A stretch of 64,000 nt of DNA from IMG/VR virus record IMGVR_UViG_3300043410_001892, positions 247,145 to 311,144 of that record; one strand, given 5' to 3'. This DNA is from a virus. Shown here in pieces: positions 788 to 41,751 of the stretch. The stretch's first letter is position 1. Each line of letters opens with the position of its first letter. The translations under genes and the position numbers were made by a program. Below the pieces are notes generated by a model. It made no database searches and had not been told where the DNA came from. It worked only from the letters and a program-made list of their open reading frames with translations.

Positions 788-1072
788 TTATTCTCCTTTA
801 TATTTAGGTTGTTGACCTGCACTTGCCATAATAATTTCTTTATTAGGTCCGCAGGAATAAAATTCTACTTCGTAAAGATCTCTCGCGTGACCTAAGTATG
901 TACACCCAAGAGGTTTTGAAATTGCTCGTCTTTGATCAGTGTATTTTACAGTATTAAATGTTAATCCTCCAACTACTGCTAACCCAACCATTACAACTGT
1001 TACTAATGCGGATTGAAATATCAGTCCGCCTAATACTCCTAAGAAAATTATTAGTATCATTGTTAAAATCAT
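788..1072 (-). CDS. Small membrane protein
   Basis: 94 residues. The first 45 are strongly hydrophobic (one long or two short membrane segments); the rest is a soluble tail with two cysteines (GCTYLG, YSCG). The start overlaps the stop of the uvsE-like gene (ATGA) and its stop lies one base before the next start, so it is translationally coupled on both sides. I do not recognise a family. Confidence 0.6.
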   Translation of the reverse strand: MILTMILIIFLGVLGGLIFQSALVTVVMVGLAVVGGLTFNTVKYTDQRRAISKPLGCTYLGHARDLYEVEFYSCGPNKEIIMASAGQQPKYKGE

Positions 1073-2097
1073 TCTGTAACTCCTTTAGAATTGTGATAAT
1101 TATATAGTTCAAATGAAGCAAGGTTTTTGCCTTTGCTTTCTGCCATTATGTCAAAGTTATCTAAAAAGCTCAATGCCCAGTCATTGACTGCAACATTCCA
1201 GTAAAAGTTAGAATGAGCTCGAAGTTTTTGTTTATTTAATCCAGATTCAAGCAATAGTTGAAGTTCTGGCAAAGTTTGTTTGTTATGGGTTGGTAGCACA
1301 TCTTCCCTACTAATAGAATAATGCATAGTGGGGCGACGACCACGCCAGCTATCAATAACCCTTTGTACGCGCTCATCGTCCGGCTGTATGTATTCGCCTG
1401 TTTTAATAAAGTGATGGTGTATATCCAAAACCACAGGTACTCTACTAGCAAGGGTAAGGCAGTCATCAAGTCCAAAAGAAATCTCCTCATTTTCTACAGT
1501 AATACAATTTTTAGCAACATCGCTTAATCTTTCGTAAGCGTCTAAGAAACCTTGTGGACCACGTTTACCTGCAATATGCACATTGATTTTCATATCCTGA
1601 AATTCCTTGCCATATCCCATCCAACGTGCCATGTCTGCATGATATTCAAATTCTTCAATACTGCGTTCAACTACGTCATCTCGATCAGATGCTAGTACAC
1701 AAAACTGACCTGGGTGGAAACTAAGTTTAATATCATTCGTTTTTGCAATTTCGCCAACACGAGCAAACTCACGCGCAATATAAGCAATCACATCAGGTTT
1801 TTTGTAAAAGTAAGAATAGTTTTCGTGTGTGTAAACAGGAAGTATATCGCTACTAATACGTAACATACGTAATGGTTGTGGAAGTGTAGAAACTTTGAGT
1901 ACTAATTTACGAGTAGCTTCAATATTTTGTTTTATTAGTTCCCACAGTTTTTTCTCAGCATTAGCTGGGAGTTGTCTGCCAAGCCAAGCAACTGTAGTAG
2001 TGCCTGTGTTATATTTTTTACAATCGTCAGTTGATTTAATTCCGTCAACTTGATGCGGAAAATCAATAAACTTGCAAGCAAAGCCTATTCTGTACAT
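1069..2097 (-). CDS. uvsE: UV damage endonuclease (UvdE/UvsE)
   Basis: 342 residues matching the TIM-barrel UV damage endonuclease family, which nicks DNA 5' of UV photoproducts. Visible hallmarks are RIGFACKF at the N-terminus, the LSFHPGQFCVL metal-site strand, INVHIAGKRG, the VENEE acidic pair and VLDIHHHF. Length is near that of Deinococcus and Bacillus enzymes. First gene of the cluster ending at the terminator near 66-98. Such repair genes are common in phages exposed to sunlight. Confidence 0.92.
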   Translation of the reverse strand: MYRIGFACKFIDFPHQVDGIKSTDDCKKYNTGTTTVAWLGRQLPANAEKKLWELIKQNIEATRKLVLKVSTLPQPLRMLRISSDILPVYTHENYSYFYKKPDVIAYIAREFARVGEIAKTNDIKLSFHPGQFCVLASDRDDVVERSIEEFEYHADMARWMGYGKEFQDMKINVHIAGKRGPQGFLDAYERLSDVAKNCITVENEEISFGLDDCLTLASRVPVVLDIHHHFIKTGEYIQPDDERVQRVIDSWRGRRPTMHYSISREDVLPTHNKQTLPELQLLLESGLNKQKLRAHSNFYWNVAVNDWALSFLDNFDIMAESKGKNLASFELYNYHNSKGVTE

Positions 2098-2514: not shown

Positions 2515-3267
2515 CTACGCTAAGTTGGATTTAAGTAATTTTGAAATAGCTTGTACTTCAATATTTACCACACCTAATACACCTAAAGCAGCCCATCCAA
2601 AGAATACAAACCCGTAGTGTAATGGTGCTACGAATAGTTCTTCCATGAACCAGAAAGTGTGTCCCCATTCGTTTAATCCAACGTTTGGAAGAATCATAAA
2701 TGGCCCGATTACAGATACCATGTATTGTAATGGTAAGCCTTTTTGGTAGGTAGGCAAGCGTGTTTTAGCATATAAGAATGCTGCGACACCTGTGATGATG
2801 TAGATAGGATAACTTAGATAAAACTCAATAACATGACTTGGTGTAAAATCAGTATCACGGACAATCGTTTGATGCCATGTACCATCTTGTTCTGTAAAGT
2901 ATGAAGCACCGTAATAAATTGCAATACCATACATTACTAACCAAACCCAGTGTGTAAAATGTCGACGCAGTTCCTCGCGAGGTGTAATTGACATTACGTT
3001 GCGATCACGTGATTTCCAAAGATAACCCCATAATACAGAAGCGGTTAGGATTTCAAGAACCATTTCAATGTATAGGAAGTTCATCCAATATGTTTCAAAC
3101 TCTGGTGCAAATGAGTCTAAACCAGCAGACCATCCATAAACACCTTCATACCAACGGACCCACCCGTAAAATACAACGTACAACGCTGCACCTGCGAGCA
3201 TGTTTGTTTTGTTTAAAAGTGAAGCTTCTTTAGCTTCAGCTTTTACTGTTTCAATTGTAGCTGACAT
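2515..3267 (-). CDS. pmoC: Particulate methane/ammonia monooxygenase subunit C
   Basis: 250-residue polytopic membrane protein of the PmoC/AmoC family, a subunit of the copper enzyme that oxidises methane to methanol (or ammonia) in the host's intracytoplasmic membranes. The family's metal-binding triad is intact: Asp128 and His132 in QDGTWHQTIVRDTDF and His145 in TPSHVIEFYLSYP. Other conserved blocks are FETYWMNFLYIEMVLE and GPFMILPNVGLNEWGHTFW. The start at 3265-3267 has AGGAG 7 bases upstream; the upstream in-frame ATG has none. It stands alone, without pmoA or pmoB, with its own strong promoter, about 115-base leader and terminator, as expected for an auxiliary metabolic gene. Sequence alone does not separate methane from ammonia oxidation; methane is favoured by known pmoC-phages. 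Confidence 0.95.
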   Translation of the reverse strand: MSATIETVKAEAKEASLLNKTNMLAGAALYVVFYGWVRWYEGVYGWSAGLDSFAPEFETYWMNFLYIEMVLEILTASVLWGYLWKSRDRNVMSITPREELRRHFTHWVWLVMYGIAIYYGASYFTEQDGTWHQTIVRDTDFTPSHVIEFYLSYPIYIITGVAAFLYAKTRLPTYQKGLPLQYMVSVIGPFMILPNVGLNEWGHTFWFMEELFVAPLHYGFVFFGWAALGVLGVVNIEVQAISKLLKSNLA

Positions 3268-26493: not shown

Positions 26494-26519
26494 TGAAAAA
26501 GCACCCCGGAGGGTGCTTA
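26494..26519 (-). terminator. Intrinsic terminator of the tmRNA gene
   Basis: Minus strand: GCACCC-TCCG-GGGTGC hairpin followed by T5. Confidence 0.8.
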
Positions 26520-26915
26520 GTTGTATTTTGGTTAACAAGGCATACATGCCCCGGAGGGGTAGGTTATTAAGCTACCATGTCAGCTGCTTCCAAAGAGAAG
26601 TCAACTGTCATATACTCGAATTTAGATGCTTTTGCGTCTATAAGTTTTGCGCTGTTTAGGACAGTCACCTCACCTGTTGCCGTCTCCATTATCTCACCCA
26701 ATCGAAACCATGACAGCCCCATTATAAAACACACTAGCACTTCCCTTTTAGGGGGCAGGAAGTTTATGGCTATGGCCCCACTCTAATACCTCTAATGTGT
26801 TTTATGGTGGAACTGGGGGGAGTCGAACCCCCGTCTTGAATGCCTTCACTTTGAAGGAATTACAACAATAATAAGAACACTAATAAATCTAATGTTCTTA
26901 TTATTATTTAGTATG
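26520..26915 (-). ncRNA. ssrA: Circularly permuted tmRNA (ssrA) with a 27-residue tag
   Basis: Reading the minus strand from the promoter: a 12-bp AATAATAAGAAC hairpin; the tRNA-like 3' end GACGGGGGTTCGACTCCCCC then CAGTTCCACCA (about 26831-26805); an 80-base linker closed by TAAAACACA/TGTGTTTTA; then the tmRNA 5' end GGGGCTGTCATGGTTTCGAT from about 26720. The acceptor GGGGCTG/CAGTTCC joins the two pieces. The tag frame starts at GCA (26648-26650) and reads AKLIDAKASKFEY...ADMVA, ending in TAA TAA (stop 26567-26569). The order 3' piece, linker, 5' piece is that of two-piece tmRNAs. It rescues stalled ribosomes and tags their products for proteolysis. Confidence 0.9.
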
Positions 26916-26920
26916 TGTAC

Positions 26921-30005: not shown

Positions 30006-32051
30006 TTATTTTTCCGTAGCTATCCATTCTCCATTCCAGTTATCACCTAAATCTTGTTGTTTCATAAAGTCACAACGTTCAATCCATATTTTGTAGTATT
30101 TGTCCATTTGTCCACCAAAGGTGCCTTTCATAGTTTTACACATTGCAGCAGCTTCATCAAACTTCTTTTGTTTATATAAGTCGTGCATGAGGTTGTGTAA
30201 GTCTTTATCTTTACTATAATCAGCACCTTTGGTGCGTAATGCAGTATAGATTAAGTCTGCAACTGTTTTACCTTTTGGTTGTAAGTTATCTAACAGTAAG
30301 TAAAAGAAATCGTCTTTAGTTCTGTTATATGTTTCAGCACCAATGATACATAGTACACCGTATGCTTTACAACGTGCTTCTAAACGAGCAGCAGTTGAAA
30401 CCATATCACCTAAGATATCATAGCTGTGTCTATCACTAGAACCCATTTCGCCAATGAAGCCTATTCCGCTATTACACCCCCAGCCCATAGCTGCGGGTGG
30501 TAACCCTTTGGCTTCCATAATCTTAGTATATGTATCGACTGCGTCTAGCATTTCTAAGCCAACTTTAACAATAGTACGAGCATGATTTCCATCATCAATT
30601 GGAGCACCGTGAATATGCATTGATGCATCTCCTACGTACTTAATAACCATACCTTGACTATCCATAATAGGTTTACTAATACTATCCATATATCCGTTCA
30701 TGTATAGACCTAGACCTGCAACATCATCGCCAAAGTGTTCACCAATTGGAGTAAATCCGCGCAAATCTGAGAACATAACTGAAACATCTTTACGTACACC
30801 TTGTTTAATTAAGTCTGGATTTTCTTGTAGCATTTCAACTACTTTTGGAGAGCAGTAGCCAGCAAATTGTTTTTTAATAGCTAGTTTTTGAGTTAGTTCA
30901 TCCACAAACTTAACAGTATAAGCATGAGCATAAACAAGAGTAAATCCAGATACAACAAATGTTGCATCCAAAAGAATATTATAAGTGGTGAAAGCATAAC
31001 TAAAAGCATAAGGTATACCACCAATGAAAGCAATAATAGGAACAAAGCCGTATCTCCATCTTGTTAAAAATATAGATCCAATTGCAAGTACAATAAAACC
31101 TAATAGTTCAGCACCGTCTGCATAATCAGGTCGTACAATATTAGTACCGGATACTAATGTGTCTAAAACCGCACCTTGAACTTGATGCGGAAACTGTTCT
31201 CCTCTAGCAGTTGCAACTGGGTTATTGAGTCCCCTTGCAGTAAGTCCGACAATGACGATCTTTCCGCCAAAGAATTCTGGGAGATCAGTGATTGGAAAAC
31301 TTTCAGGTTGGTGGGACCAGTCAATCCAAACTCTACTATAGGGGTCTGTTGCAATTTTTCCAAACTTAGGTATTCTGACAGCTTCGACTCCAATGTCTGA
31401 GATTTTAACTTGGAAACTTGGATCTCCACTTGCGACTCTAAGTGTGTCCAGTCCAAGGCTTGGATAGAGTTTTCCTTTTGATGAAATAACCATTGGCATT
31501 CTTCGCACGACGCCATCAAGTTCTGGGAAAGTGTTAACAATACCAGCACCAGCAATAACATCATTAAGTTCTTTAGTATTTGCTTGTATGTTTTCATAAT
31601 TTACAGTAAAAGGTTGATCTTCGTTACCGATTACACTAACGCCTGGACGAAATGCAATAGTATCTGATTTTATAGGTTCGTTAGTTCCAGTTTGCGGTAA
31701 GATTACAGGAACTGTTGTCATAAGTTTAGCTAAGACTGGGTCTTTTTTAAATCTATCAGCATCTGGCATAAAGATGTTGAATACAACTAAGCCAGCACCT
31801 CTTGAATACAACTCTTCAATTATTTGAGCATATATATCACGTGAGAATGGGAATTGACCATACTTCTCTAATGCAGCATCGTCGATGTTTACTGTAGCAA
31901 CAGATGATTCTTGTATAGGTTTACTTGTAATAAGTGTATCAAAGTATCTTAATCTCATACTTTCTACAAATGATGGATCTGCAATTCTTATAGCTGCAAC
32001 TAGCATAAGAGTTAAAAGAGCAGTCCATGGGTTTAATAATATTTTCTTCAT
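30006..32051 (-). CDS. CHASE2-domain class III adenylate cyclase
   Basis: 681 residues: signal anchor (residues 8-24), large extracytoplasmic CHASE2 sensor (about 30-320), three more membrane spans (325-390) and a cytoplasmic cyclase domain (about 420-600). Metal aspartates are in MFSDLRGFT and YVGDAS; IKYVGD supplies the adenine-specific lysine. In the final motif GDMVSTAARLE the usual transition-state Asn is Ser while the Arg is kept, so activity may be reduced. Start at 32051 overlaps the stop of the upstream curlin gene (TAATG). It is the last gene of the curli operon; FecR-CHASE2-cyclase sets occur in bacteria. Confidence 0.88.
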   Translation of the reverse strand: MKKILLNPWTALLTLMLVAAIRIADPSFVESMRLRYFDTLITSKPIQESSVATVNIDDAALEKYGQFPFSRDIYAQIIEELYSRGAGLVVFNIFMPDADRFKKDPVLAKLMTTVPVILPQTGTNEPIKSDTIAFRPGVSVIGNEDQPFTVNYENIQANTKELNDVIAGAGIVNTFPELDGVVRRMPMVISSKGKLYPSLGLDTLRVASGDPSFQVKISDIGVEAVRIPKFGKIATDPYSRVWIDWSHQPESFPITDLPEFFGGKIVIVGLTARGLNNPVATARGEQFPHQVQGAVLDTLVSGTNIVRPDYADGAELLGFIVLAIGSIFLTRWRYGFVPIIAFIGGIPYAFSYAFTTYNILLDATFVVSGFTLVYAHAYTVKFVDELTQKLAIKKQFAGYCSPKVVEMLQENPDLIKQGVRKDVSVMFSDLRGFTPIGEHFGDDVAGLGLYMNGYMDSISKPIMDSQGMVIKYVGDASMHIHGAPIDDGNHARTIVKVGLEMLDAVDTYTKIMEAKGLPPAAMGWGCNSGIGFIGEMGSSDRHSYDILGDMVSTAARLEARCKAYGVLCIIGAETYNRTKDDFFYLLLDNLQPKGKTVADLIYTALRTKGADYSKDKDLHNLMHDLYKQKKFDEAAAMCKTMKGTFGGQMDKYYKIWIERCDFMKQQDLGDNWNGEWIATEK

Positions 32052-32674
32052 TATTGTCCTTGTTGTACTGATATTGGTGCGCATCCGCCTGCAGTAGCGC
32101 AGTTAGAGTTTATAGAATAAATTTGTTGAGTAGCACCGCTTTGTCTTAGGTTTAAACTAGCAGGCTGTCCAGATAGAATAACTTCAGACATATGAGGTGC
32201 TGCTCCTTCTTGTATAATACTAACATTCTTATTACCACCTGAAAGATTAACTGTTGCATAATGATTACCTTCATCAGTTTGGTGAATGCTAAGTAAGTTA
32301 TTATCATCAGCTACTGTAGCAAATATACCTTTCCCAAAGCTAGTAGCTGTAGTTGTAGTTTGTTCAAGATCTATAGTATTAGTGTTACCAGTTGTTGATA
32401 AATCAACAAAATTAGTTTGCAAATCGTTAGTTCCAATTTGATTGATTGTTACACTATTACTACTACCCACACCTGTATAGTTAGTGTAGTTATTTTTTGT
32501 ACCAATTTGTTCAACGGTAATTGTATTATCATTACCAGATTGCATAATAGTTGATTGATTATCAGAAGTTGGTCTTGACACAAACGTCATTACTTTAGCA
32601 ACATCTGCAGGGTTTGCAGGCGGTAATGCATAACTTACTGAGGTTGCTAATAATAAAAGAAACATAAATCTCAT
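32051..32674 (-). CDS. Curlin-repeat protein (minor subunit-like)
   Basis: 207 residues. Signal peptide MRFMFLLLLATSVSYA, then imperfect curlin repeats with the N-x-x-x-x-x-Q-x-G/T spacing: NDNTITVEQIGTKNNYTN, SNSVTINQIGTNDLQTN, TNTIDLEQT, NLLSIHQTDEGN, NVSIIQEG, SLNLRQSG. Such repeats form the beta-helical amyloid of CsgA/CsgB. Overlaps neighbours on both sides. Nucleator or major subunit cannot be told apart. Confidence 0.8.
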   Translation of the reverse strand: MRFMFLLLLATSVSYALPPANPADVAKVMTFVSRPTSDNQSTIMQSGNDNTITVEQIGTKNNYTNYTGVGSSNSVTINQIGTNDLQTNFVDLSTTGNTNTIDLEQTTTTATSFGKGIFATVADDNNLLSIHQTDEGNHYATVNLSGGNKNVSIIQEGAAPHMSEVILSGQPASLNLRQSGATQQIYSINSNCATAGGCAPISVQQGQ

Positions 32675-33753
32675 TTGTGTAATACTCCGTTAGTTTGTGT
32701 AATATTTACTGTATTGCCGCCAAACCCTCCTTGACCTATAAGAGCCGATGACAGTGTGTTATCTTGTGTCACTGATACTGTAGTGTTTGAATTATATCCT
32801 TGTGTTTTAACTTCTGAATAATGATTCATAGGTGAAATTCTGTAAGCAATTGCTTTACCCTTTTGTTCACCTTCTCCATCCGGATTTTCCCACATTAGGC
32901 AAACAGTAGTAATTGGATTACATCCATTATCAAATTTAAAGTTTAATATTGCTCGAATATGTGCGTCCATTGTTTCTTGAGTCTTTGATACTTGATTTGC
33001 TAACCTACGCGTAGCTTCTTCTTCAACTTCTTCCTGTTCTTTATCCCATTTAGTTTTAGCTGCTTCTTTAACAGCTTTTGTAAGTTCAGGAGGTTTAAGT
33101 AGAATCAACGTATTGTTGATCTTTGATTCAAGTACACTAACAATAGTTGGAGGACTAGGCATAACAGTACGACTTTGAACATACGTTGCATGGAATGCTT
33201 GATCTAATACTACTTTACCTGCTTCATTCTCAACTTCAATTTGTCCTGACTTGCATTGATTTTCTTCAAGTTCGTATTCTTTAACTTGCTTGTCATCTTT
33301 GCAACTTGGTAACAGTACAATTAAAGATTGACCAGCTTCGTCAACTGTCATGGAAAAGTCAGTACCTCTAACTGCAATAGTAGCAGTAGGAGTTTGAATA
33401 CCAACTTGTTGTGGATTAGCTTTAGCTATCTGCCCACTTGCATAACGTACAGTTCCCATACCAACTTTTAATGCAAGTTTACCTGCATCAGATTGCTTTG
33501 GATCGTAAACAAAGTCATCTATAACTAATCGACTATTTTCTGTTACTTTAACTTTTGTATCGTCTTTGAATATTAAATTGCTAACGCAACTACCAGTAGA
33601 ATACGCATCCATACTTTCTATTGATGCGCCTTTATCACCAGTAAGTTTTTCTTTATTACGTTCAATATTACACGCAGTTCCTTTGGCATCAGATACTGAA
33701 CCAATACCTGCGTGTACATTTGTAACTAAAAGAAAAAATAGTAAGATCCACAT
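32671..33753 (-). CDS. FecR-domain secreted protein with curlin-like C-terminus
   Basis: 360 residues. Signal peptide MWILLFFLLVTNVHA. Residues 20-150 form a FecR-type beta domain (IFKDDTKVKVTENSRLVIDDF, TPTATIAVRGTDFSM). Middle region 230-265 is helical and charged. The last 40 residues contain two curlin-like repeats (NSNTTVSVTQDN, GGNTVNITQTNG). The fusion suggests it is attached to, or senses, the amyloid, perhaps passing a signal to the CHASE2 cyclase two genes downstream. Confidence 0.8.
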   Translation of the reverse strand: MWILLFFLLVTNVHAGIGSVSDAKGTACNIERNKEKLTGDKGASIESMDAYSTGSCVSNLIFKDDTKVKVTENSRLVIDDFVYDPKQSDAGKLALKVGMGTVRYASGQIAKANPQQVGIQTPTATIAVRGTDFSMTVDEAGQSLIVLLPSCKDDKQVKEYELEENQCKSGQIEVENEAGKVVLDQAFHATYVQSRTVMPSPPTIVSVLESKINNTLILLKPPELTKAVKEAAKTKWDKEQEEVEEEATRRLANQVSKTQETMDAHIRAILNFKFDNGCNPITTVCLMWENPDGEGEQKGKAIAYRISPMNHYSEVKTQGYNSNTTVSVTQDNTLSSALIGQGGFGGNTVNITQTNGVLHK

Positions 33754-34532
33754 TATCTTGCAACAGCTGATTTTTCGCCTACTATACCTAATGTTGCATC
33801 ATTAGTTGAATGTACAGTAATTGTATTGTTATTACCGGTAGTATTGATATCAATCATAGAATCATTAGACCCTTGTTGCTGTGTAACAATTGAGTTAAAG
33901 TCACCAGTGATTAGTTGTGTAAGTTGATGTCCAATACCGCCATTATCTTGTTCGTTTATAAAAGAGTTAAAGTTACCATTTGCGGTAGTAGTATCAATTC
34001 CATTCATACTATTTAATCTTGTAGTAATTTGGTTAGACGAACCAGTTATCGCAATTGTACTATGTATATTATCTTTAGTTAGTGATTGAATAATAAAGTT
34101 TGTATCTCCACTAACTGTTTCATTTACTATGTTAGTAGATGACGGAGTTCCTGTAACACCAATAGTAAGTAACGTTTGATTTTGCATTCCTGTTATCAGT
34201 GATGAGTAAATGTTATTGTTACCATTGATGTTATATTGTGCCCAGTTCCCGTCGCCTGTTTGATTAAGAGTTACTTGGTTAGTATTTCCTGTAATCGTTG
34301 CATAATTCGTTGTGGCTGCAGCACTTGGTACAAACGAAGTAATAATGTTGTTAGCACCGTAAGATATAGGAGAAACAAGTGTTGTGCCACCAACATTATT
34401 AGTTCCGCCAATCTGATCAATAATAATTGTGTTTGTATTACCAAGTTGTTCAATGTATACATTATTAGTTCCTGTTGGTCCAGCTGCAAGTACAGAATTA
34501 CTGAGTAGGAGTAGAACTAATAACTGTTTCAT
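33753..34532 (-). CDS. Curlin-repeat protein (major subunit-like)
   Basis: 259 residues. Signal peptide MKQLLVLLLLSNSVLAAG. Many curlin-type repeats: NNVYIEQLGNTNTIIIDQIG, NTNQVTLNQTGDGNWAQYN, NFIIQSLTKDN, NSIVTQQQGSNDSMIDIN, NTITVHSTNDA. The start at 34532 has AGGAG upstream and lies inside the 3' end of csgG. Likely the main secreted amyloid subunit. Confidence 0.82.
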   Translation of the reverse strand: MKQLLVLLLLSNSVLAAGPTGTNNVYIEQLGNTNTIIIDQIGGTNNVGGTTLVSPISYGANNIITSFVPSAAATTNYATITGNTNQVTLNQTGDGNWAQYNINGNNNIYSSLITGMQNQTLLTIGVTGTPSSTNIVNETVSGDTNFIIQSLTKDNIHSTIAITGSSNQITTRLNSMNGIDTTTANGNFNSFINEQDNGGIGHQLTQLITGDFNSIVTQQQGSNDSMIDINTTGNNNTITVHSTNDATLGIVGEKSAVAR

Positions 34533-35355
34533 TGCTGGTCTCCTTAGATTGTTCTTTAAAAGACCAATGTCCTTTTCTCGCTCCTTCTTTAATAGTTTCA
34601 AGCACTGCAGCTTGAATTGCCTTATTAGTTGCCTTATTAATACTTTCATTAATACTTCCACCTATTTCTGTTTCTAACATCTTTGTGTCAGAAGAGAACA
34701 TTCTTAATACACCTACTTTATCCATATAACTTAGAACAGTTTTTGTTACTACTACCGATGTTAAAATTTCACCAGAAGTAACAGAAACTACTCTCAAGCT
34801 AACTGTAACTGTATCGCTTTGGTATTGCGTTTCACCCCCAATACCAAAGATCCTAACACCAGCACCTCCTGTGACTGTGTTAGAGTCGTACCCAACAATT
34901 GCACCTTCTGCAATAATACCAGCAAAAGTCATAGCAGGTAACGGTGTTGCAGCATCCTTTCCTTGGAACTGCTCGCGGGTTTGACGAATCATTTGCCGCT
35001 CTTTAATTAGATTATCTAATCCAACTCTTTCTAGTACTATAAACCATCGATTATTACCTACTTCTTTTAATGCTTTAATTAAGTAATTTTCTGCACCTTG
35101 GGTAACAGCTGAACTTAAACTAGCAATATTTGGAACTGATTTACGTTGCCCAGTTTTATCATTAAATCCGTATACTGCAATTGGTATAGGACCAGTAGTA
35201 GGCGGTGCAAGTAAGTTTTCTTCTTTTTTCATAAAAGGAGTATCATCAATAATTGGATCATCAAATTGTTCACCTGTTATGAATTTTTCAATTGTGCTAG
35301 TAGTAGCGCATCCGTAAAGTAATATGGTTGTTATTAGTATGAGTAGTTTTTTCAT
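34498..35355 (-). CDS. csgG: CsgG curli secretion pore lipoprotein
   Basis: 285 residues. Lipobox LYGCAT after a short signal (Cys16). CsgG family blocks: IPIAVYGFNDKTGQRKSVPN, VTQGAENYLIKALKEVG, WFIVLERVGLDNLIKERQMI, IIAEGAIVGYDSNTVTGGAG and YQSDTVTVSLRVVSVTSGEI. CsgG forms the nonameric outer-membrane channel of type VIII secretion. Nine bases after csgF-like. Confidence 0.95.
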   Translation of the reverse strand: MKKLLILITTILLYGCATTSTIEKFITGEQFDDPIIDDTPFMKKEENLLAPPTTGPIPIAVYGFNDKTGQRKSVPNIASLSSAVTQGAENYLIKALKEVGNNRWFIVLERVGLDNLIKERQMIRQTREQFQGKDAATPLPAMTFAGIIAEGAIVGYDSNTVTGGAGVRIFGIGGETQYQSDTVTVSLRVVSVTSGEILTSVVVTKTVLSYMDKVGVLRMFSSDTKMLETEIGGSINESINKATNKAIQAAVLETIKEGARKGHWSFKEQSKETSNETVISSTPTQ

Positions 35356-35363
35356 GCTTTACC

Positions 35364-35837
35364 TTAAAAATAGAAAGTGCCCGCAGGTACTTTCATCAAT
35401 GTTGTTTGATCTGGATTAAGATTATTTGTAATACTAATAACGATCATTCCTTGATCAGAGCCTTCACCTAAACTCCATGAAACTGTACTCCCTCCAAGAT
35501 CGGGAATAGTTCCACATGTTATACCAGGTTCGGTACATTTAGTTCCGTCAGCAAACATACTATCAGTAAGTTGTTTTGCTAACTGTGAATATATTCTTGA
35601 TTCTAAATTTGATAGAAATTTAGCTTGTGGAGTATTAAGTGCAAGAGCGTCTGCTTTGGCTTGTATTGCATCAGCAAGTGCTTTATGTTTTTCAACATTT
35701 TGCTGTTCAAGTTGTTGAATAGTTAGAGTATGATTACTATAACCAATGCCGCTAAATGCTGGGCTATTAAAGCTATGTTGGAGTTCAGCAGAATATGCTG
35801 TTGTTGATACTAGTAGTAATGCTAATAGTTTTTTCAC
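35364..35837 (-). CDS. csgF: CsgF-like curli assembly protein
   Basis: 157 residues. Signal peptide MKKLLALLLVSTTAYSA, then ELQHSFNSPAFSGIGYSNHT, matching the CsgF N-terminal segment (F-x-NP-x-F-GG) that plugs into CsgG, a helical middle and a beta C-terminus (MIVISITNNLNPDQTTLMKV). The start is GTG (35835-35837) with GGGG upstream. First gene of the operon. No CsgE or CsgD homologue is visible in the window. Confidence 0.82.
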   Translation of the reverse strand: MKKLLALLLVSTTAYSAELQHSFNSPAFSGIGYSNHTLTIQQLEQQNVEKHKALADAIQAKADALALNTPQAKFLSNLESRIYSQLAKQLTDSMFADGTKCTEPGITCGTIPDLGGSTVSWSLGEGSDQGMIVISITNNLNPDQTTLMKVPAGTFYF

Positions 35838-36480: not shown

Positions 36481-36831
36481 ATGAGAATATTTGAAATTAC
36501 TGCACACATGTCAATAGATCCGGATAACTACGGAACTACTATACAAAGTTGGAATAAGAAGGAACGACATAAAGTTAAAGAAATTCCAATGTCACAACTT
36601 ATAACATTTGAGCATCCTGATAAGATGAAAGATCCTGCAAGTAAGCAGAATATGATGAAGATTGCTAAGGCATATCATATGGGAGAACGTATACCACCTA
36701 TCATGGTTAAAAAACATGATGATAAGTATATGATATTAGATGGGCATCATAGATACTTTGCTGCAAGACTTGCAGGGATAAGATCTATCCCTGCAATCAT
36801 TATACCTGATGATAAAATTACTATTGATTAA
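36481..36831 (+). CDS. ParB/sulfiredoxin-fold nuclease-like protein
   Basis: 116 residues, plus strand. Leader MRIFEITAHM, then a ParB-like core: MGERIPPIMVKKHDDKYMIL and DGHHRYFAARLAGIRSIPAI. The DGHHR box is the conserved catalytic or nucleotide-binding element of the ParB N-terminal/sulfiredoxin fold, also found in phage nucleases and kinases. Converges with the RimK-like gene, overlapping by 11 bases. Confidence 0.75.
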   Translation: MRIFEITAHMSIDPDNYGTTIQSWNKKERHKVKEIPMSQLITFEHPDKMKDPASKQNMMKIAKAYHMGERIPPIMVKKHDDKYMILDGHHRYFAARLAGIRSIPAIIIPDDKITID

Positions 36832-37702
36832 GTTTTGATTTAACGTATTCAACAATTTCAAAACCAACATTAGTATTGCAGAAGTGATCAAATCCATTAA
36901 ACCCTGGATTAGAATTAGCTTCGCAAACTTTAAAACCGTTTTTATCAAATAAGAGATCAACACCTGCTATTTCTAAACCAAGAGCTTGTGTTGTTGCTAA
37001 TGCAATTGATTCTATTTCTGAAGTAACTGGATATGGTTCGCCTTTCCCACCAATTGTAATATTAGCACGAAAATCACCAGATGGAGCAGTTCGCTTCATT
37101 GCACCGATGACTTTATTACCTACTACAATAACTCTTAGATCAACACCTGGTTGATCTCCAAGATACTCTTGTACCAGAAGTTTCTTTTGGTTATCAAGAT
37201 TTTTTAAGAATTCGATTAATTTTCGATACTCGTGCTCACTATGACACAAGTAAACACCTTCTCCAAAACTACCAACTAAGACTTTAATTACGCAGGGAAA
37301 TCCTATATGTGTTGCGATTAAGTCGTTAGTGATGGGAAAGTGTACAAGCATAGTAGTCGGAACTGCTATATTAGCTTGTGATAAGATTTGACTAGTATGA
37401 AATTTATTCTGTACTATGTTTACACTGTCGCTTGAATTTATACATGGAATGCCATGTAATTCAAAATATCTAACTACGGCCAATTCAACTGAAGTAATGC
37501 CTGCACCTAGTCTTACTAATACTAAGCTAGGGAGATCAAAATCTTCACCAAGATATTTAATAGGTTGATTTATAACAATATCAAAGTTATTAAATTGCCG
37601 CACAGATGCATCGATACCAGCAGCTATAAAATTAGATAATAATTTAGCAGTTTCGTATTCGATTAAAGTGTGTTTTGTAAGAATTATAACTGTTTGTTTC
37701 AT
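36821..37702 (-). CDS. RimK-like ATP-grasp ligase
   Basis: 293 residues. ATP-grasp features: FPCVIKVLVGSFGEGVYLC (phosphate-binding loop), VQEYLGDQPGVDLRVIVVG, MKRTAPSGDFRANITIGG and AGVDLLFDKNGFKVCEANSN. Closest by pattern to RimK, which adds glutamates to ribosomal protein S6, or to related carboxylate-amine ligases. Given the translation theme, modification of a ribosomal protein is plausible but unproven. Confidence 0.85.
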   Translation of the reverse strand: MKQTVIILTKHTLIEYETAKLLSNFIAAGIDASVRQFNNFDIVINQPIKYLGEDFDLPSLVLVRLGAGITSVELAVVRYFELHGIPCINSSDSVNIVQNKFHTSQILSQANIAVPTTMLVHFPITNDLIATHIGFPCVIKVLVGSFGEGVYLCHSEHEYRKLIEFLKNLDNQKKLLVQEYLGDQPGVDLRVIVVGNKVIGAMKRTAPSGDFRANITIGGKGEPYPVTSEIESIALATTQALGLEIAGVDLLFDKNGFKVCEANSNPGFNGFDHFCNTNVGFEIVEYVKSKLNQ

Positions 37703-37736: not shown

Positions 37737-38414
37737 TTACATTTCAGGAAATAGACATTCGTGTACGAATAATTTAACATCTTCGTCACTTAGTCCAAGT
37801 GCAGCCATTACTCGAGGGGTGTGCGGTATTTGTTTTTGTTGTATAGCATAAAAGTTTTGTGCTTGCACCGTGCTTTTAACTGTGTTATTTGTACGCGCAA
37901 CGTTTGAAACATAGTAGTTGCTTGTTGTTTGTACAATGCTATTTATTTGTGTAATTTCATCTTGTTTTTGAATATTACTTGCTGCAATTATATGTGGGGA
38001 AAATATATCCTTCCCCCACTCAGGAATTTCTCGAACCTTTTCCCAAGTAAGTTTGTTTACTTCTTGGCTAAAAAAATCTATCATTGGATGATCAACATCA
38101 CCTGCAGGACTGTAATCATGAAAGAATCCAGTAATCTTATTACGTCCTGCAACAATGTCGCAACCAAAGATAGGAGCCGGGTTATGAATGTGAGGAAAAA
38201 TACAGCAATGCATCATCCATAACCCGTTACCATCTGAAGCATCTACTACATTAAGATGCGCTCTACGATATGCATTGCTAGTCCAAACTCTGTTGATCCA
38301 GCCATTATAGTTAAATCGTTCTAAGCCAGGTTCTTCAATTTCAGTACCTGACTGATTAAACAATTCTTCTAAATGATGCTGGACTTTAATTAGTTGTGTC
38401 TTTAGCTCAGTCAT
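37737..38414 (-). CDS. Ferredoxin-dependent bilin reductase (PcyA/PebS/PcyX family)
   Basis: 225 residues. Family core: RRAHLNVVDASDGNGLWMMH, CCIFPHIHNPAPIFGCDIVAG, NKITGFFHDYSP and VDHPMIDFF. These enzymes reduce biliverdin to phycobilins using ferredoxin. It overlaps the heme oxygenase gene that would supply biliverdin. Phage versions include PebS and PcyX; PcyX occurs in phages thought not to infect cyanobacteria, which would fit this host. The exact product (phycocyanobilin or phycoerythrobilin) cannot be read from motifs alone. Confidence 0.9.
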   Translation of the reverse strand: MTELKTQLIKVQHHLEELFNQSGTEIEEPGLERFNYNGWINRVWTSNAYRRAHLNVVDASDGNGLWMMHCCIFPHIHNPAPIFGCDIVAGRNKITGFFHDYSPAGDVDHPMIDFFSQEVNKLTWEKVREIPEWGKDIFSPHIIAASNIQKQDEITQINSIVQTTSNYYVSNVARTNNTVKSTVQAQNFYAIQQKQIPHTPRVMAALGLSDEDVKLFVHECLFPEM

Positions 38415-38964
38415 TGACTAATGGAATCGAAATTGAATCGTGTAGTTCATCAAACAATCTTGCGGCAAATTCAAAACACACGTTTGCTTCATCTGCCATA
38501 TCATCGTTTAGCTTTTCTCTAATGGTAGCTTTAAGCTCACTGGCATTTTCAAATTTGTAATAGTTTCCTTGTCCTGGAACTTTTTGTGCAATCATTTGAC
38601 CACCATACAAATCTCCCATGTGTCTAACATACAAGTGCGCCATTAGTTTTTCTTTATCTTCGCGTATTGTAACTAAATGCTCTTTATATGCAGTAGTCAC
38701 TGGCAATTCAACAGGTGGAGCATCTCCCTTAGGCCATAGTTCATAAAAATCTTCGTGTATACGCGGAGCACGTCTAATATTAGGAAGATCGTTTAACAGT
38801 CCAGCCATTGTTGCATGTGTTTCTAGCATGTCGTACATTTGAAATTGATTATACAAATATGTTGCATATAGAGTTGGATTGATCTCTCCTGCAAAAATCA
38901 TTTTAACAAATGGCTTTGATTCAACTAGATCGTGTGATGCTTTAGTTAGTTCTTTTAAACTCAT
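38407..38964 (-). CDS. ho1: Heme oxygenase
   Basis: 185 residues. Motifs: LTKASHDLVESKPFVKMIFAG (proximal His), YLYNQFQMYDMLETHA, AHLYVRHMGDLYGGQMIAQK (distal helix with GDLYGG) and YKFENASELKATIREKLND. Cleaves heme to biliverdin, CO and iron. The start at 38964 has GGAG upstream; the longer reading frame overlaps clpS and is rejected. Stop overlaps the bilin reductase start. Confidence 0.95.
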   Translation of the reverse strand: MSLKELTKASHDLVESKPFVKMIFAGEINPTLYATYLYNQFQMYDMLETHATMAGLLNDLPNIRRAPRIHEDFYELWPKGDAPPVELPVTTAYKEHLVTIREDKEKLMAHLYVRHMGDLYGGQMIAQKVPGQGNYYKFENASELKATIREKLNDDMADEANVCFEFAARLFDELHDSISIPLVND

Positions 38965-38980
38965 TATTTCTCCAATAAGG

Positions 38981-39283
38981 TTATTCTTCTTCAAGTTTAA
39001 GTTGTAATGGGAAACCCGACGCCCTTGCAAGTGCAGTTGCTTCGACTGTTTTTATTTCTGCAATTTCAAAATTGTAAACACCTGCTACTGCAGAACCAGT
39101 TTCATGAATTTGCATAGTAATAATACCTGCAGAATTTGGGTCATGTTTAAAGATCTCCATTAGCATTGATACAACAAAATCAACCGGAGTAACATCATCG
39201 TTAAGAACGATTACTTTCCAACGTTTTGGTTCTGGTACTTGTATCTTTACTTTTTCGTCTACAGCAATATCTGTACTTGTCAT
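38981..39283 (-). CDS. clpS: ClpS adaptor
   Basis: 100 residues, matching ClpS: PKRWKVIVLNDDVTPVDFVV (NDD and N-degron pocket), HETGSAVAGVYNFEIAEIKT and ARASGFPLQLKLEEE. ClpS delivers N-degron substrates to ClpA. Together with phage clpP and the tmRNA it suggests control of host ClpAP targeting. Confidence 0.95.
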   Translation of the reverse strand: MTSTDIAVDEKVKIQVPEPKRWKVIVLNDDVTPVDFVVSMLMEIFKHDPNSAGIITMQIHETGSAVAGVYNFEIAEIKTVEATALARASGFPLQLKLEEE

Positions 39284-39291
39284 TTGGACTC

Positions 39292-39711
39292 CTATTTAAT
39301 TTGAATTTGACGAGTAATCGTCGGGGTAGGTGAAATGTGATTAAGAGTAATTGTTAGTACTCCGTCCTCAATTGTTGCACTTTGGATTTCAATATTTTCA
39401 GCTAAAGAAAAAGATTTTTCAAAATCGCGAAAACCAAGCCCTCTATGCATGTATATTTTATTTGCTGAAGGATGCGGTTGGCTTCTTTTTCCAATAATAA
39501 CAAGCTGATTACCTGTAAGATTTACAGTAATATCTTCTTTTTTAAAACCTGCGATTGCTATTTCAATAGTGTATTCACTATTATCATAATTGATTATATT
39601 GTATGGTGGGTAATTGTTAGCTGCTGAAATACATGCAGCAGTAAATAGAGAATCAAACCCTATTAATGATTTATTGTATACTAGTAATGATAATTTGTCA
39701 TCTGACGACAT
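39292..39711 (-). CDS. Small heat shock protein (Hsp20/IbpA)
   Basis: 139 residues with an alpha-crystallin domain: YNIINYDNSEYTIEIAIAGF, ITVNLTGNQLVIIGKR, RGLGFRDFEKSFSLAENIEI and GVLTITL (I-x-I-type tail TRQIQIK). Nine bases before clpS and behind its own promoter. Holds unfolded proteins for refolding by DnaK. Confidence 0.93.
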   Translation of the reverse strand: MSSDDKLSLLVYNKSLIGFDSLFTAACISAANNYPPYNIINYDNSEYTIEIAIAGFKKEDITVNLTGNQLVIIGKRSQPHPSANKIYMHRGLGFRDFEKSFSLAENIEIQSATIEDGVLTITLNHISPTPTITRQIQIK

Positions 39712-39822: not shown

Positions 39823-41751
39823 TTATTCAGTTTTATCTGAATCAGGATTTGCAGTTACCTCAACTACTTCTTCAGTTGGAGTAACTTCTGAAAATTCAGC
39901 ATCTACACTTTCTGCAGTTGATGAGTTAGCTTCATCTAACTCACGTTTCTTATCAAATGCAGGTTGCGCTGCTTCGTATAGTGTTTTAATTGCTTCACCG
40001 ATAGCTTCAATATCTTCACCGTCACGAGCAGTATTTAATGCAAGGAATGCATCTTCAATTGCATTGCGTTGTTCATCAGTTAGTTGATCTTTTACTTCAT
40101 CATAATCTTTTCTAACTAAGTATACCTGTGTTTCAGCTTGATTTCGAGTATCGATTAGCTCTTTAGCTTTAGCATCTGCTTCTGCATTTTCTTCAGCTTC
40201 TCTAACCATACGTTTGATTTCGTCCTCAGTTAAACCTGAATCAGATTTAATAGTAATCTTGTTTTCTTTGCCGGTATTCTTATCTTTAGCACTTACATGC
40301 ATAATACCGTTAGCATCGATATCAAATGTTACTTCAATCTGTGGCATGCCACGTGGGGCTGCATCAATACCTTCTAAATTAAATTCACCAAGTTGTTTAT
40401 TGTAACGATACAATTCACGTTCACCTTGTCCTACTCTAATAGTTACAGCAGGTTGGTTGTCCTCTGCAGTTGAGAATGTTTGGCTTGCTTTAGTTGGGAT
40501 AGTTGTGTTTTTAGTAATTAGTTTAGTAAATACACCACCCATTGTTTCAATACCTAAACTTAGTGGAGTAACGTCAAGTAACAATACGTCAGTTTTGTCA
40601 CCTGCTAATACCGCACCTTGAATAGCTGCACCAGCTGCAACTGCTTCGTCTGGGTTAACATCTTTACGTGGTGCTTTTCCAAAGAATGCTTCAACAGCTT
40701 CTTGTACTTTAGGCATACGTGTTTGTCCACCTACTAAAATTACTTCGTCAATATCTGACAAATCAACTTTAGCATCTGCAACTGCAATTTTACAAGGTTC
40801 AATTGAACGTTGAATTAAATCATCAACTAGACCTTCAAACTTAGCACGAGTTACAGTTACGTTTAAGTGTTTAGGACCAGTGGCATCTGCAGTAACATAT
40901 GGTAAGTTGACATTAGTTTGTGCAGTGCTTGATAACTCAATTTTAGCTTTTTCAGCAGCTTCTTTTAAACGTTGTAATGCCATTGTATCGGATTTAAGAT
41001 CAACACCAGAATCTTTCTTAAATTCATCGATTAAATGATCCATTAAACGTTGGTCAAAGTCTTCACCGCCTAAGAATGTATCACCGTTTGTTGATAATAC
41101 TTCAATTTGTTTATCACCGTCAACATTAGCGATTTCAATAATACTAATATCAAAAGTACCACCACCTAAGTCAAATACAGCAACTTTGCGGTCTTTCTTA
41201 TCAGACTTATCAACACCATAACTTAATGCTGCGGCTGTTGGTTCATTAATAATACGCAATACTTCTAATCCAGCAATACGTCCTGCGTCTTTAGTTGCTT
41301 GACGTTGTGAATCGTTAAAGTATGCAGGTACAGTAATAACTGCTTGAGTTACTTCTTTACCTAAATAGTCTTCTGCAGTTTTTTTCATCTTACGTAAGAT
41401 TTCTGCAGATACTTGTGGTGGAGCTAATTTTTCACCGTTCGCTTCTACCCATGCATCGCCATTGTCAGCTTTAATAATACTGTACGGCATTAAGTCAATA
41501 TCTTTCTGTACAGCTGACTCGTCGAATTTACGACCAATGAGACGCTTAACAGCATATAATGTGTTTTTTGGATTTGTTACTGATTGACGTTTTGCTGCAG
41601 CACCAACTAAAATTTCTTCTGGTGTGTATGCGATGATTGAAGGGGTAGTACGTGTACCTTCTGCGTTTTCAATTACTTTAGCAATTCCGTTTTCTAAGAT
41701 TGCTACGCAGCTGTTTGTTGTACCTAAGTCGATTCCGATAATTTTGCTCAT
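39823..41751 (-). CDS. dnaK: Chaperone DnaK (Hsp70)
   Basis: 642 residues, full length. Nucleotide-binding domain: [57 protein letters not shown]; linker [13 protein letters not shown]; substrate-binding domain [13 protein letters not shown]; lid and an acidic tail. No dnaJ or grpE nearby, so host co-chaperones are probably used. AGGAG precedes the ATG. Confidence 0.98.

Follow-up and report, generated by a model that had tools for sequence, protein, structure and literature searches.

Pairs of heme oxygenase (HO) and ferredoxin-dependent bilin reductase (FDBR) genes are already known in phages and are not new in themselves. They have been published for the pelagiphage Mosig and for the Methylocystis pmoC-phage CB_2 (PMC11480375), which lowers the novelty implied by an earlier note on the DNA described here. 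The PcyX type of FDBR has so far been known only from marine viruses, according to a 2024 study in which the combination of HO and FDBR with alaS in phages of non-photosynthetic bacteria was called “still enigmatic” (PMC11480375). Our searches returned no earlier description of the large PcyX clade from freshwater, of the chaperone operon that accompanies it or of FDBR variants with Asn at position 55, all of which are apparently new.

The window analyzed, a stretch of 64,000 nucleotides, belongs to a 372,173-bp IMG/VR record and contains the pair in the following context:

36821..37702, minus strand: RimK-like ATP-grasp ligase, downstream of FDBR (PF08443, E=1.2e-45)
37737..38414, minus strand: FDBR, PcyX clade, 225 amino acids (PF05996, E=3.9e-18)
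38407..38964, minus strand: HO, 185 amino acids (PF01126, E=2.6e-17)
38981..39283, minus strand: clpS, Clp protease adaptor, directly upstream of HO (PF02617, E=3.3e-26)
39292..39711, minus strand: hsp20, small heat-shock protein (PF00011, E=3.8e-17)
39823..41751, minus strand: dnaK (Hsp70) (PF00012, E=2e-258; TIGR02350, above the equivalog cut-off)

The earlier note had identified the overlapping HO and FDBR pair correctly and with exact coordinates, but had missed Asn55 and the chaperone operon. Both products have Pfam matches, and the genes overlap by 8 nt (38407-38414; junction GTCAATGACTGA). The HO scores 63.8 bits against PF01126 (cut-off, 23) and possesses the proximal His and the distal GDxxGG of the family, and its nearest solved structures are heme oxygenases 2 and 1. 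Across an alignment of 152 sequences, the proximal His (His11) is invariant and the distal GDLxGG motif is nearly always present, reading GDLYGG in the window HO. The FDBR scores 66.4 bits against PF05996 (cut-off, 31). Median dN/dS values for the families are 0.06 (HO) and 0.055 (FDBR), and that of the window FDBR relative to its nearest nonidentical relative is 0.085; substitution patterns thus indicate that purifying selection acts on both genes. HO is present in 50 of 50 viral records bearing FDBR, and the pair is therefore neither a chance association nor a decayed one. Relatives of the window FDBR number at least 266 in a scan of viral contigs, while FDBR was found in none of 398 sampled Pseudomonadota genomes and nowhere in the plasmid collection.

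HO and FDBR form the end of a conserved predicted operon, dnaK-hsp20-clpS-HO-FDBR, in every testable related freshwater phage lineage. When FDBRs are clustered at 95% identity, 76 of the 77 testable clusters have dnaK, hsp20 and clpS upstream of the pair; at 80% identity, the three genes lie directly upstream in 18/18 clusters. Conversely, searching from ClpS recovered HO in 69/69 and FDBR in 68/69 loci with sufficient downstream sequence. Overlap of HO and FDBR is found in most of the related loci, and a 4-nt overlap joins clpS to HO in 124 of the 143 loci compared, which were drawn from two scans and in some cases share a contig. The window differs in the latter respect, as a 16-nt gap separates the clpS stop codon from the ATG of its HO, which has a Shine-Dalgarno-like GGAG. 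The RimK-like gene is present in a minority of related loci (8/81 in one locus set and 13/69 in another). DnaK, Hsp20 and ClpS as constant neighbors suggest a role in stress or proteostasis and heme turnover. The conserved order could also have been inherited within one phage lineage without functional meaning, and the role of the pair need not involve chaperones, as chaperone genes were found near the marine PcyX pairs in none of 81 loci, many of them short. A literature search for a link between ClpS or DnaK and phage HO returned nothing relevant, and neither protein is mentioned in the main text of PMC11480375.

The host assignment depends on a further gene of the window:

2515..3267, minus strand: pmoC, methane monooxygenase subunit C (PF04896, E=1.8e-121)

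Its product is 92% identical to PmoC of Methylobacter-like genomes and MAGs, and this close methanotroph counterpart, together with the occurrence of just one PF04896 match across the 372-kb record (searched with that profile only), characterizes a pmoC-phage. Photosystem reaction-centre genes (PF00124), as expected of cyanophages, were found in 0/44 FDBR-bearing phage records. Because of the PmoC similarity and the lack of reaction-centre genes in these records, the host is very probably a gammaproteobacterial methanotroph of the Methylobacter-like type, in line with the methanotroph phage claimed previously. The PmoC-based call presupposes recent acquisition of the gene from the host, and the same reasoning was used by Chen et al. 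2020 to assign hosts of pmoC-phages (PMC7674155). Cyanophages classically carry HO and FDBR, but an ordinary auxiliary pair for phycobilisomes in a cyanobacterial host, the outcome named in the earlier note as refuting its proposal, is extremely improbable given pmoC, the reaction-centre result and the separation of the window FDBR from cyanophage PcyA and PebS in the tree, and a cyanophage origin was rejected. pmoC occurs in only a minority of FDBR phages, and FDBR occurs in 6 of 45 pmoC records; the two traits are thus largely independent.

pmoC is uninterrupted in the window. On four other contigs, the phage pmoC contains insertions of ~250 nt matching Rfam group I introns (RF00028), and these intron-interrupted genes may be spliced and functional:

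L364, 2649-2869: pmoC insertion
L367, 2605-2814: pmoC insertion
L394, 2113-2332: pmoC insertion
L395, 2588-2794 and 2888-3102: pmoC insertions

The PcyX type proposed for the reductase was borne out by sequence, fold and phylogeny, all of which favor PcyX over PcyA or PebS. The closest solved relative is PcyX_EBK42635 (5OWG; phmmer E=1.2e-61, versus 6e-15 for the best PcyA), and the window FDBR scores 211 bits against PcyX but 58 bits against cyanobacterial PcyA. Its AlphaFold model (pLDDT 91.9) lies 1.0 Å from 5OWG over 176 residues with 46% identity, and the PDB fold matches of the model are PcyX, PcyA, PebA and PebS. In the phylogeny with PebS, PcyA and PcyX that had been suggested as a check, the window, all marine PcyX and the freshwater phage sequences form one clade (support 98/99) that excludes PebS and the PcyA of cyanobacteria and cyanophages (99/94), in a tree of 59 rows that has long branches and from which the alphaproteobacterial PcyA branch is missing.

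The catalytic pair His69 and Asp86 (PcyA His88 and Asp105) is invariant in the window and in 154 distinct FDBR homologues. Position 55, which aligns with PcyX Asp55 and PcyA Glu76, is Asn in the window FDBR, whereas all 64 marine and 82 of 88 freshwater homologues have Asp and PcyA has Glu. The window protein possesses neither the Asp characteristic of PcyX nor the Glu characteristic of PcyA, and because of Asn55 it is termed a PcyX-clade FDBR rather than PcyX proper. The original PcyX structure paper is said to have reported Asp at this position as not essential. By contrast, Asp55 has been termed catalytic elsewhere (PMC11480375). In the tree, Asn55 appears in two distinct clades, window/L267/L272 and L273/L295/L310/L284. 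The FDBR of L284 (10743-11426), on a pmoC-bearing record, is divergent, with Gly replacing the conserved His53 (PcyA His74) in addition to Asn55. We abandoned the idea that Asn55 is tied to pmoC, as records with both pmoC and FDBR carry either Asn (window/G001, G493 and G494) or Asp (G032, G497, G502 and G517).

These residues bear on the product. The CB_2 enzyme, the closest published from a freshwater pmoC-phage, makes phycocyanobilin (PCB) and is also without Asp55 (PMC11480375), and the window FDBR might likewise function as PcyA. This is unlikely, as Glu76 is reported to be necessary for 18-vinyl reduction to PCB (PMC10151467) and an FDBR without it is not expected to yield PCB; besides the much lower score against cyanobacterial PcyA, the protein reaches only 93.8 bits with the PcyA equivalog NF002760 (NCBIfam), far under the cut-off of 206. 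The Asn55 lineage could instead be a two-electron reductase stopping at 15,16-dihydrobiliverdin (15,16-DHBV), or an otherwise altered enzyme, as the replacement of an Asp so widespread among homologues, its occurrence in two clades and the additional loss of His53 in L284 would suggest. We consider this rather unlikely, since the remaining pocket is conserved, dN/dS is low and a single base change converts Asp to Asn, perhaps without effect should the residue be dispensable. Phycoerythrobilin (PEB) is most likely the product and our best prediction, with 15,16-DHBV as the main alternative; given Asn55, the enzyme may form this two-electron product or some other bilin. With the natural Asn55 variants, the residues that set product choice in bilin reductases can be tested directly.

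BphP normally takes biliverdin unreduced, which counts against the pair making a bilin chromophore for a light sensor, a bacteriophytochrome or similar, of the phage or host. Such a sensor is conceivable in that E. coli can assemble a functional phytochrome with HO and PcyA of the CB_2 phage (PMC11480375), and phytochromes occur in 10 of 41 methanotroph genomes searched, with an HO gene adjoining several of them. However, the phytochrome-type sensor put forward in the earlier note was found neither in the phage record (tblastn with two methanotroph phytochromes as queries) nor in the 12 methanotroph genomes whose PmoC is most similar, which also lack HO, and hosts with a phytochrome mostly own an HO. 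We regard light sensing as distinctly improbable. HO and phytochrome genes adjoin each other in methanotroph genomes G078, G086, G072, G066, G064, G068 and G084, unlike in the phage. As for the electron donor, 2Fe-2S ferredoxin (PF00111) had no match in 27 phage records and motif matches were noise, and a phage ferredoxin was therefore rejected; electrons are expected to come from the host.

The reading that we favor, with a probability of roughly 60%, is that HO and the PcyX-type FDBR perform heme turnover during infection of a Methylobacter-like host, within a conserved phage stress/chaperone operon. HO would open host heme to biliverdin IXα, CO and ferrous iron, and FDBR would reduce the biliverdin with host ferredoxin electrons, most likely in a four-electron reaction to PEB, and so pull the HO reaction forward. 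As the last, putatively translationally coupled cistrons of the operon, the two genes would contribute to a chaperone/proteolysis stress module by recovering iron and clearing heme and biliverdin. Methanotrophs are cytochrome-rich, and infected cells would therefore hold heme to dismantle. The direct basis of this reading is family membership, intact catalytic residues, purifying selection, the conserved operon and the signs of a non-cyanobacterial host, from which we infer the PEB product, the electron donor and the physiological role.

More tentatively, and less likely than not, the operon may encode a dedicated stress/proteostasis module that strips and destroys heme, for example, from host hemoproteins after ClpS-guided proteolysis, yielding bilins as antioxidants or as products of iron recovery. 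If so, a heme-destroying module would provide a non-photosynthetic reason for bilin pathways in many phages, and Asn55 lineages may yield a different bilin. The strict linkage to DnaK, Hsp20 and ClpS provides a testable lead for the pair, namely, heme turnover under stress rather than use of light.

Comparison of near relatives indicates exchange of the pair within a retained locus. Between L269 and L272, flanking proteins are 91 to 99% identical but HO and FDBR are only 63% identical, and nucleotide identity falls from ~0.91 in the flanks to 0.68-0.69 in HO and FDBR (clpS, 0.83; rimK, 0.78). This drop implies replacement of HO and FDBR in place by recombination, with the locus kept. Exchange always as one unit was rejected, as it holds for L269/L272 but comparison of L315 with L331 shows replacement of HO alone.

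Downstream of the pair lies a curli-type block (30006..35837, minus strand; Pfam), regarded as neighborhood and not claimed as part of the pathway:

35364-35837, minus strand: csgF (Pfam)
34498-35355, minus strand: csgG (Pfam)
33753-34532 and 32051-32674, minus strand: two curlin-repeat proteins (Pfam)
32671-33753, minus strand: FecR-domain protein (Pfam)
30006-32084, minus strand: CHASE2-cyclase (Pfam)

Of 81 related loci, about 60 also have csgF/csgG. Pelagimyophages carry partial curli operons and share the csgF/csgG block with the window (PMC7029224); the window adds the curlin-repeat proteins, FecR and CHASE2-cyclase, and extends the block to freshwater phages. Elsewhere, the window encodes a tmRNA (26494-26918, minus strand) that matches both the permuted tmRNA RF04321 and beta_tmRNA RF01850 and is called permuted by ARAGORN, a membrane protein of the Bax1-I (BAX inhibitor) family (118-822) and a UvdE UV-endonuclease (1069-2097, minus strand).

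Among known systems, PebS of cyanophage P-SSM2, a single-enzyme PEB synthase, has the same overall fold as the window FDBR (Z ~19) but is only 13% identical in sequence, belongs to another FDBR branch and has a cyanobacterial host. The CB_2 pmoC-phage resembles the window in its freshwater origin, methanotroph host, possession of HO together with a PcyA/PcyX-branch FDBR, and lack of Asp55; it differs in its PCB product, a position grouping between PcyX and PcyA, Methylocystis as host and the presence of AlaS (PMC11480375). AlaS is absent from the phage record of the window and is found in 12 of 27 related records, never adjoining the pair. The Pelagibacter phage Mosig EXVC030M, an isolate with a non-photosynthetic host, has the same overlapping HO-PcyX arrangement and an FDBR 42% identical to that of the window, but its pair adjoins neck proteins, ferrochelatase and 2OG oxygenases, with no dnaK, hsp20 or clpS nearby. 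The marine-phage PcyX (5OWG) and its HO share with the window the order HO-FDBR with overlap, His69 and Asp86, whereas the window FDBR is ~43% identical to marine members, is from freshwater and has Asn in place of Asp55. Finally, marine PcyX is found in a structural-gene/2OG-oxygenase context, while the pair of the window is located in a chaperone operon.
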